From: an uncultured Clostridia bacterium
GTDB taxonomy: Bacteria > Bacillota > Clostridia > Christensenellales > UBA1242
Reading direction: 5' to 3'
Length of the DNA: 64,000 nt
NCBI GenBank assembly: GCA_944377165.1
Contig: CALWEJ010000001.1
Coordinates: forward strand, 107,490-171,489
Notes under the pieces: generated by a model
What the model was told of the DNA's origin: nothing
Databases searched by the model: none
What the model saw: only the letters and a program-made list of their open reading frames with translations
Part shown: positions 17,679 through 45,976 of the stretch, piece after piece
How the letters are laid out: each line of letters begins with the position of its first letter
How positions within the stretch are numbered: position 1 is the stretch's first letter
Position numbers and translations under genes: made by a program

Positions 17679-17740
17679 CGCTTTATATAAATAAAAAAGA
17701 CGGGGTTTAGTCACTGCATTTTGAAACTAGTGTAATAATT

Positions 17741-17775
17741 AAGAGTTGAGATAGAAATATCTCAATTCTTTTTTT
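17741..17775 (+). terminator. terminator of the ABC transporter operon
   Basis: A 12-base stem (AAGAGTTGAGAT with ATCTCAATTCTT, one wobble) with a six-base loop is followed by a run of T on the plus strand. It lies about 60 bases after the permease stop codon and is the first of four hairpins in this intergenic region. Confidence 0.85.
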
Positions 17776-17778
17776 AAA

Positions 17779-17955
17779 GGCTATTTTATGCCGTGAAAGG
17801 TACTTGACAAGAGAAGAAATGAAAACACAATACAAAAAGGCAGAGAAACGGACAAACAAAGTGTGTAAGCACAAAAATCGTTTCTCTGTCTTAACCAGCA
17901 AAAGAAAAACTCATTTCAGAAACTCTTGTCAAGTACAGCATGGAATAAATTAGCC
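17779..17955. ncRNA. 177 bp rod-like inverted repeat, candidate structured RNA
   Basis: Nested arms pair along almost the whole length: GGCTA with TAGCC at the ends (17779-17783, 17951-17955), a perfect 14-base stem at 17800-17813 with 17923-17936, GAAATGA with TCATTTC (17816-17822, 17911-17917), and AAGGCAGAGAAACG with CGTTTCTCTGTCTT (17837-17850, 17879-17892; one wobble). Between them are large internal loops. Closing stem, open centre and terminal hairpin in about 180 nt recall 6S RNA, but a defective mobile element is also possible. On the minus strand TATAAT at 17961-17956 could be a -10 box. No coding frame of interest lies within. Confidence 0.45.
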
Positions 17956-17967
17956 ATTATATATACA

Positions 17968-18014
17968 GCAAAAAGCGAAAGTGTGTTTCGTTCACCAACG
18001 CTTTCGCTTTTTGT
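17968..18014. terminator. strong hairpin with T runs on both strands
   Basis: A perfect 12-base stem, AAAAAGCGAAAG (17970-17981) with CTTTCGCTTTTT (18001-18012), extends by one or two pairs. T-rich ends face outward on both strands, so it could terminate transcription in either direction, for instance of the 177 bp rod element read rightward. Confidence 0.65.
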
Positions 18015-18033
18015 CTGTTTTATTTAGTTTATA

Positions 18034-18100
18034 GGCGTGTGCTTGTCTGTTCGAGCGAAGCGAGAACACTTGTATCAAGACAAGCACACGTTTAAATGCC
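18034..18100. repeat. 13 bp inverted repeat with inner hairpin
   Basis: CGTGTGCTTGTCT (18036-18048) pairs perfectly with AGACAAGCACACG (18078-18090); inside it GTTC (18049-18052) can pair with GAAC (18064-18067) around the mirror sequence GAGCGAAGCGAG. GC content is clearly above the surroundings. No T run follows, so it is not a typical terminator. Fourth hairpin of the cluster. Confidence 0.7.
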
Positions 18101-18131
18101 ATTTAATATTTTTTAGAAATTTTTGTATATT

Positions 18132-18162
18132 TTCAACTTTTTTATAAAATATGTGCTATAAT
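18132..18162 (+). promoter_or_regulatory. extended -10 promoter of the HNH gene
   Basis: TGCTATAAT ends at 18162, giving a perfect TATAAT with a TG extension. A poor -35 (TTCAAC at 18132-18137) lies 19 bases upstream, tolerable with an extended -10. Transcription would begin near 18169, just before the AAAGGAG ribosome binding site. Confidence 0.6.
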
Positions 18163-18184
18163 ATTTCTATTAAAGGAGAAATTT

Positions 18185-19000
18185 GTGGGAATTTTTATAT
18201 TTTTAGGATTAGTGTTAATTGTTAGTACAATTTTCATCATATTCAAAGTTAGACAAAGTAAATACATTAGATACCTTTTAAATAATAGTTTTGCTTTAAA
18301 CAAATTATTAAAATTAAATGATAATTTTAAATTTGTTAATATATCAAATGACTTTTTTGACACCCACACATATGATAATGAAACATTTTTTAATAATATT
18401 TCTTGCGAAGATTACCTTATATATCAATTACAATTCAAAAAATTTGAAATAGAAAATGCAATAAAAAGCATTAAGTATAACATCACTTTATATGAAAAAT
18501 ATATTAATGAGTTAACAAAAATAAGTGATTTTGGCAAATATAAAGATGAAGAAAAATTAAATGTGGCATATTTACTAAAACTAGAAAAGAAACTATTTAA
18601 GCAAAAAGTATTAAATCCCAAAAGAGTTCTATATATACAGATTGTTTTATATTGTTCAAAAATTAATGGATATATTTATGCTAAAAAAGAACAAATCTTT
18701 ACAACAGAAGAAGTTGAAACATTAATAAAACGATTAAATAATAAAAATTATGAATTTTATAATGATAAAGGAATTTGGGCTGCATTATGTAGAGTTGAAA
18801 GAGGAAGGGTTTCAAATAAAATGAGATTCGCCATTTATAAAAGAGATGGTTATAGATGTTGTTATTGTGGAAGAAGTGAAGATGCTGATTATTTGGAAAT
18901 TGATCATATAAAACCTATCGCAAAAGGCGGGAAAAGCACATATGATAATTTACAAACGCTTTGTAGGAGATGTAACAAAAATAAAGGTGATTCATATTAA
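18185..19000 (+). CDS. membrane-anchored HNH-domain protein
   Basis: A 271-residue protein started at GTG behind an AAAGGAG site. Residues 2-22 form one transmembrane helix; residues 25-200 are helical, charged and unlike any family I know; the C-terminus is an HNH nuclease domain, with the zinc-type cysteine pairs CYCG and CRRC, the catalytic-type EIDHIKPIAKGG motif and a final NKNKGD. HNH proteins cut DNA or RNA, but a membrane-tethered form is unusual. Own promoter, own terminator, flanked by the hairpin cluster, which suggests an independently acquired unit. Defence, DNA uptake or processing roles are possible; none is shown. Confidence 0.8.
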   Translation: MGIFIFLGLVLIVSTIFIIFKVRQSKYIRYLLNNSFALNKLLKLNDNFKFVNISNDFFDTHTYDNETFFNNISCEDYLIYQLQFKKFEIENAIKSIKYNITLYEKYINELTKISDFGKYKDEEKLNVAYLLKLEKKLFKQKVLNPKRVLYIQIVLYCSKINGYIYAKKEQIFTTEEVETLIKRLNNKNYEFYNDKGIWAALCRVERGRVSNKMRFAIYKRDGYRCCYCGRSEDADYLEIDHIKPIAKGGKSTYDNLQTLCRRCNKNKGDSY

Positions 19001-19006
19001 TTTATA

Positions 19007-19037
19007 AAAAAGACTAAGTAAAAAACTTAGTCTTTTT
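19007..19037 (+). terminator. terminator of the HNH gene
   Basis: A perfect 13-base stem, AAAAAGACTAAGT with ACTTAGTCTTTTT, around a five-base loop directly after the stop codon. The T runs on both strands could also stop leftward transcription. Confidence 0.9.
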
Positions 19038-19262
19038 CGCTAGTTTCAAAAGTGTTAGCCCTTATATCTCGTCTTTTTTTATGAATTAAAAATATTAAAA
19101 TTAAAAGAAATACCATATCTCATAATGATTTTATTTTTATATCACAATAACTTAATAAAACTTAATAAAAAGATTAATTAAAGATTTTTAAATACATAAT
19201 AACTTTTTACTAATCACTATATAAATGTGTTTTATGTCTTTGTAAGTGTTATTTATAGACTG

Positions 19263-19661
19263 TTAATTTAGACCGATATTGCTAACTCTATCTTTATCTC
19301 TTATTAGATAGACCGCTTCTAATTTCTTTAAACCGACAAATGAAACTAATACACTATCCGCGCTTAAATCTACCCTTTTACCGCAACTTGACAAGTACAT
19401 AATGTTTTCTAATAATTCAGGGTGACTTAACATTGTATCAATAATTTGGTCAATTTCAAAATCTAAATAATGATGCAAAACAAAGGCAATCTGATGCAAG
19501 TCATTCCTTGCAAATTCACAAAAATCACTATAGTTAAGACCATAATCTTTAACGATGACTTTAGCCGTTTCTAAAAATTTTATATGATTACGCTCCTTTG
19601 CTCGTGATTTGCAAAGAAGTTTACGTCCTTCTAATTTAGTATCTAATTTTGTTTTTTTCAT
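19263..19661 (-). CDS. unknown basic/helical protein
   Basis: About 132 residues from the chosen start, with a lysine- and arginine-rich N-terminus (MKKTKLDTKLEGRKLL) and a helical body containing FARNDLHQIAFVLHHYLDFEIDQI. The site GGAGG lies six bases before ATG at 19661; an ATG one codon earlier is the alternative. No family recognised; no membrane segment. It lies alone downstream of ftsZ on the same strand. Confidence 0.65.
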   Translation of the reverse strand: MKKTKLDTKLEGRKLLCKSRAKERNHIKFLETAKVIVKDYGLNYSDFCEFARNDLHQIAFVLHHYLDFEIDQIIDTMLSHPELLENIMYLSSCGKRVDLSADSVLVSFVGLKKLEAVYLIRDKDRVSNIGLN

Positions 19662-19764
19662 CATCTTCCTCCAGCGAGAGTTATTATAATTCACAATTAG
19701 ATACTTGTCAATATCAAATTAATAATTGATTAGTTATTGTAAATTCTATCTAATCTCTAATTTA

Positions 19765-45719: not shown

Positions 45720-45845
45720 CCTCCTTTATGCTTTTTAAATAAAAATTCCTCTTGCGATAGACAAAAGGAATATAATCGACATAATTTCTTCTATCCTGCA
45801 TAGGCAAATGTTAGGCTAAAAGCACCTATGGTCTAAGGCACGAAT
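45720..45845 (-). promoter_or_regulatory. L10 leader of rplJ-rplL
   Basis: On the minus strand the leader contains CCTTAGACCATAGGTG, then GCCTAACATTTGCCTATGCAGG, whose outer parts can pair (CCTTAG-type with CTAAC-type, ATAGG with CCTAT), as in the Firmicute L10 leader, which includes a kink-turn region. A short ATTCC/GGAAT hairpin with T-rich end just before the ribosome binding site may attenuate. Family call rests on position and these motifs, without a covariance search. Confidence 0.75.
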
Positions 45846-45976
45846 TCTTATTTAACTTTTGCTATTTTACTCTATTACAATAATTTTGTCAAGAGATTTT
45901 TAATTTTTTTTCGCTTTTTATTAAAATTATAATATGTTGTTGCTATTTATACCAAGATTCATTTTTAGTTATTAAA

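Follow-up and report, generated by a model that had tools for sequence, protein, structure and literature searches.

Group IIC introns insert at intrinsic terminators. Integron cassettes are small, hairpin-rich units that usually carry one adaptive gene and depend on an enzyme encoded elsewhere, and MITEs and transposase-less passenger-gene transposons are non-autonomous units with terminal inverted repeats. Multi-targeting large serine recombinases (LSRs), namely Cp36 and the TnpX/TndX-like clade, act on many targets that consist of an A-rich 5′ region, a 2-bp core and a T-rich 3′ region (with an AA core for Cp36 of Clostridium perfringens), and they use a symmetric donor of ~50 bp and duplicate the core (PMC10083194). 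The locus described here, in an uncultured Clostridia bacterium, has features in common with each of these systems and matches none of them fully. Its target, duplicated core and donor resemble those of the multi-targeting LSRs, but it lacks a recombinase of its own, its targets are specifically the loops of terminator hairpins and its cargo can be exchanged. In addition, a search of same-genus genomes did not recover the DUF4368 domain that is common in the LSR clade. It shares the integron cassette traits listed above, but has no attC and no attI platform, its cargo is enclosed by inverted half-sites, insertions are dispersed among terminators and a 2-bp core is present. MITE-like traits extend to 71–75-bp versions, whereas a constant structured head, common to HUH-Rep/LSR elements, and defined terminator-loop targeting set it apart from MITEs. 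Unlike group IIC introns, it has no reverse transcriptase or ribozyme match, and it inserts in the loop with inverted DNA ends. No earlier description of terminator-loop cassettes was found in the full-text literature, with subscription papers mostly outside its scope, which makes novelty provisional.

The analysis covers 64,000 nucleotides (the window) and began from a block of hairpins at positions 17741–18100. Four hairpins are present, as the first-pass annotation had reported, and the largest is a 177-bp rod with a perfect 14-nt inner stem (17800–17813 with 17923–17936). The fourth hairpin spans 18036–18090, within the slightly wider hp2 of Table 1. Folding energies for positions 17700–18130 are −147.2 kcal/mol (+ strand; z −10.45) and −127.3 kcal/mol (− strand; z −11.0), and no shuffle reached either value, so that hairpin stability is far above chance on both strands. 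The claim that almost every base lies in a palindromic arm was too strong, because the minimum free energy structure pairs 66% of the block. The block is the left part of a larger feature, 17707–19063, that includes the HNH gene (Table 1), and we consider it likely that it forms the constant head of a 1.36-kb non-autonomous mobile gene cassette. Units of this kind occur at many loci and in many genomes with exchangeable cargo, they target terminator loops and are bordered by a 2-bp direct repeat, and a relative has the uninterrupted terminator. That the cassettes are mobile is almost certain.

Table 1. Parts of the cassette and of its target site, in window coordinates
Feature	Position	Strand	Description
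Left half of the ABC operon host terminator	17693..17706	+	A6 + stem, AAAAAAGACGGGGT; left arm of target site
Left cassette end (attP half-site)	17707..17738	+	Core TT, TTAGTCACTGCA-TTTTGAAACTAG-TGTAATAA; based on the 63-end matrix and the core dinucleotide test
Hairpin 1	17741..17770	+	Terminator-like stem-loop immediately within the left cassette end; hairpin at this place in many listed ends
Rod	17779..17955	+	177-bp imperfect palindrome; invariant tips TTTATGCCGTGAAAGGTnCTTGAC / GTCAAGnACACCATGGAATAAAT
Hairpin hp1	17969..18013	+	
Hairpin hp2	18033..18094	+	Inner stem; outer arms GTGTGCTTGTC/GACAAGCACAC
Cargo gene	18185..19000	+	271-aa HNH protein, apparent N-terminal membrane segment; Pfam HNH 5e-16
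Terminator hairpin just within right end	19006..19037	.	A/T tracts on both sides; from sequence
Right cassette end (attP half-site)	19032..19063	-	CTAGTTTCAAAA-GTGTTAGCCC-TT
Right half of the host terminator	19064..19080	+	ATATCTCGTCTTTTTTT; right arm of target site

Cassette units are flanked by inverted copies of TTTTGAAACTAG. Each end is an inverted site of ~32 bp with the form XX-AGKYWA-N4-TTTTGAAACTAG-YRNAATAA, and a matrix built from 63 ends gives the consensus WWRGKYWA-N4-TTTTGAAACTAG-YRNAATAA. At the same threshold, the matrix has 120 matches in the fetched loci, which were partly picked for the motif, compared to 3 in the reversed control (859 kb). Exact outward-facing pairs of ends, as in arrays or a dif-like site, had no exact match in 34 genomes; imperfect tandem units occur in L096 and L098. 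Tiny units of 71–75 bp were also observed that consist of two cassette ends and one terminator hairpin (L070 5343–5413 and 10435–10509; L080 3509–3582; L098 3634–3704), some of them in tandem with a neighbouring unit with which they share one core.

Flank sequence differs between loci, but within a cassette the left flank is complementary to the right. Cutting 12 bp beyond each TTTTGAAACTAG yields a canonical intrinsic terminator in nearly all long cassettes; joined flanks have a mean ΔG of −10.2 compared to −4.9 for swapped flanks (0 of 20,000 permutations), and the junction with the core sits in the loop of a terminator-like hairpin in all 21 complete cassettes, although the hairpin of L086 is weak. 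The rejoined target in the window reads AAAAAAGACGGGGT-TT-ATATCTCGTCTTTTTTT, in which 17693–17706 pairs with 19064–19080 once the cassette is removed. In the related genome G012, the terminator after a permease ortholog with 90% identity is uninterrupted and reads AAAAAAGACGAG-TAAAA-CTCGTCTTTTT (L160). The cassette is delimited to 17707–19063 because excision restores a terminator and because G012 has an uninterrupted one at that place. The cassette is absent next to all other permease orthologs examined, most of which have an ordinary terminator-like hairpin on their downstream side. All of the genomes compared are drafts, and the uninterrupted site was recovered at the G012 locus only, where the right flank differs because of an extra gene in G000, the genome to which the window belongs. 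The permease terminator of G012 is followed almost directly by ftsZ, which implies a second insertion at this place in G000. An ORF of 143 aa (window 19263–19694, − strand) lies between the cassette and ftsZ and is absent from the other 33 same-genus genomes; being unique to G000, it is unusable as an orthologous anchor. No empty site could be recovered for the G000 cassette that lies between ychF and tyrS, where the order of neighbouring genes varies too much, and a search with the joined flanks of L026 returned only a weak DegV match.

The bases at the 12-bp offset are the same on the left and right in 16 of 20 cases, where 7.3 are expected, and offsets from 2 to 21 otherwise have no comparable excess. 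When later cassettes are added and the mini units are left out, the core (TT, AA or AT) is identical at both ends in 19 of 21 (0 of 200,000 permutations). One exception, L086, fits after a 1-nt shift; in the other, L083 (2680–3460), an HD-domain gene cassette lies between 14-bp direct repeats (TGCTAAACCAAGAG), which take the place of the 2-bp one. Four complete cassettes (L258, L269, L270 and L271), which belong to two other genera and to one other family, came to light only once the rule was in place, and it holds in every one. The reconstructed attP, or circle junction, is a symmetric 46-bp site, ctagtttcaaaa-n10-XX-n10-ttttgaaactag, with two inverted half-sites of ~22 bp. The tandem units in L096 and L098 have 22 bp between end motifs, that is 10+2+10, with one core in common. 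Dispersed copies with target duplications, which the first-pass annotation had proposed as the mark of a mobile element, are thus found in modified form: the copies are dispersed, and the duplication is that of a 2-bp core.

The rod is single-copy in G000 (1.02 Mb), and a head of 395 bp recurs with 84–99% identity in the same-genus genomes G009, G002, G018 and G003 at unrelated, non-syntenic places. Homology ends with the head, and the cargo side of each copy is a different gene: HNH in the window, radical SAM in L008, a CPCC protein in L010 and DUF6994 in L007. Cargo orientation relative to the head varies, and the cargo often comprises anti-phage defence genes. L077 carries 6.1 kb with AIPR, an AlwI endonuclease and D12 methyltransferases, and its AIPR protein is identified as AbiU by PADLOC (E 3e-191); other complete cassettes carry ThaI restriction-modification, peptide deformylase, GNAT and other genes. 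In another genome, L026 has an HNH body 98% identical to that of the window from 18024 to 19064, with a different terminator and a different left part, which indicates that heads and bodies recombine. The HNH gene is cargo rather than, as had been suggested, a recombinase that uses the adjacent site, since in other cassettes this head is accompanied by different genes. The proposal of a small non-autonomous mobile element was right in essence, except that the mobile unit exceeds the hairpins and the rod alone does not recur within its own genome. End motifs are present in 27 of 34 same-genus genomes and are rare in an even draw across the order (6 of 121 genomes). Within the family, complete cassettes were found in two further genera, one represented by G085 and G143 and the other by G125. 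Outside the family, G075 has the complete form and G070, of yet another family, a single end. The head was not found in plasmids, the only trace among phage records was hp2, next to an HUH-Rep ORF in one unannotated fecal scaffold (L285), and no viral contigs with an exact end were found.

Three other explanations of these structures were weighed. A structured non-coding RNA transcribed from 17741–18100, either 6S-like, as the first-pass annotation preferred, or an HNH-associated guide such as HEARO/omega RNA, would account for the very stable fold and for covariation in hp2, in which compensated double changes occur at 10 of 23 pairs among 24 sequences. We regard it as very improbable. The hairpin region has no Rfam match at gathering scores, and at E ≤ 10 it has only sub-threshold matches, none of them convincing and 6S not among them. 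The HNH protein has no RuvC/IscB domain, with Pfam giving HNH only, and the head has copies at unrelated loci, where it accompanies many unrelated genes in both orientations. Compared to the window copy, hp2 is flipped between its outer 12-bp arms in L007 (1455–1515) and L269 (3868–3928); such inversion speaks for a hairpin in DNA rather than for a fixed RNA. The sole Rfam match in the window is a ribosomal protein L10 leader at 45731–45856 (− strand).

A DDE transposase acting in trans is a more serious candidate, though still an unlikely one; the cassettes would then be MITE-like passengers of a classical transposon whose terminal inverted repeats are 32 bp long, which duplicates 2 bp of its target and which prefers terminator palindromes. 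Such an enzyme would give similar ends, and the terminal inverted repeats, small internally deleted copies of 71–75 bp, variable cargo and short direct repeat are all compatible with it. The 2-bp repeat, however, varies in content (TT, AA or AT) and is centred in a palindromic target, which fits serine-recombinase cores better, as do the two-part half-sites, and no autonomous copy bearing a transposase was seen. Integron-type movement, in which a tyrosine integrase would act on folded attC-like hairpins and place cassettes of one gene each at secondary genomic sites, is about as improbable as the RNA explanation. It shares with our cassettes the single gene per unit, integron-like cargo, trans-acting enzyme, folded structures and paired arms at the ends, but the cargo here lies between two inverted half-sites and not beside one attC, an identical 2-bp core is no signature of tyrosine recombinases, and the cassettes mostly occur without arrays. 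The tyrosine recombinases of G000 were considered as cassette-borne enzymes and rejected, as none lies in or beside a cassette.

Given mobility, the mobilizing enzyme is probably a serine recombinase. We infer this class from three traits of the sites that fit it: the 2-bp core is duplicated, the donor is symmetric and has two arms, and the targets consist of an A-rich region, core and T-rich region. No complete cassette encodes a recombinase gene, so the enzyme is expected to act in trans. The cassette would excise and insert as a unit by means of two inverted half-sites around the 2-bp core. Its insertions lie in the loop of intrinsic terminators whose stem is preceded by an A-tract and followed by a T-tract; in the window this is the terminator that closes the ABC transporter operon. 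A multi-targeting serine recombinase may join the 46-bp attP of the cassette circle to the terminator as attB. Against this account, none of the LSR loci fetched from the genus bears the cassette end motif, DUF4368-type LSRs were not found among the same-genus genomes searched, and LSRs are absent from several cassette-bearing draft genomes.

Head hairpins are not confined to the cassettes. Among the 21 complete cassettes, hp2 is present in 17 and the rod in 8, with 13 lacking the rod; alignment of rods reveals invariant tips and an interior that varies yet stays palindromic. Rods also immediately follow the 3′ end of large serine recombinase genes at loci that lack cassette ends (L188, L198, L247, L254, L256 and L284), and hp2 occurs near HUH Rep genes in L247, L198, L284 and L285, of which the first two have PF23343 genes and the last two sequence-similar Rep ORFs. 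The order in L247 is cargo, hp2, HUH Rep (PF23343), large serine recombinase and rod; L284 has a similar order, as does L198, where the LSR is truncated, and no Rep was seen in L188. In small integrative elements these two hairpins go together with HUH-Rep and serine-integrase genes, and the head is for that reason probably a replication or mobility region; that the rod and hp2 play this part for the excised circle, with an HUH Rep acting in trans, is a weaker suggestion than that of the recombinase. These small elements (L247 2461–5636, L198, L188 and L284) combine hp2, HUH Rep, LSR and rod, with cargo that includes restriction-modification genes.

Intrinsic terminators are intergenic and all have an A-tract, stem-loop and T-tract, so targeting of their loops lets an element insert widely without breaking genes, and the inner terminators of the cassette would insulate its cargo. 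We tentatively propose, as a possibility that falls somewhat short of an even chance, an undescribed gene-cassette mobility system that is the serine-recombinase counterpart of integrons, in which terminators are safe landing sites throughout the genome and the hairpin head lets an HUH Rep in trans replicate or transfer the circle. If true, this would explain how genomes of ~1 Mb gain single genes and defence systems such as AlwI/AbiU and ThaI restriction-modification. Cassettes can be sought elsewhere by the rule of an identical dinucleotide 12 bp outside TTTTGAAACTAG with terminator-forming flanks, and they provide a search target for a multi-targeting integrase. LSRs with readable ends lie mostly at tRNA genes, and in L194, L197 and L252 the large serine recombinase frame overruns the element end, and the break falls at CCGCACCA, resembling that at the 3′ end of a tRNA.
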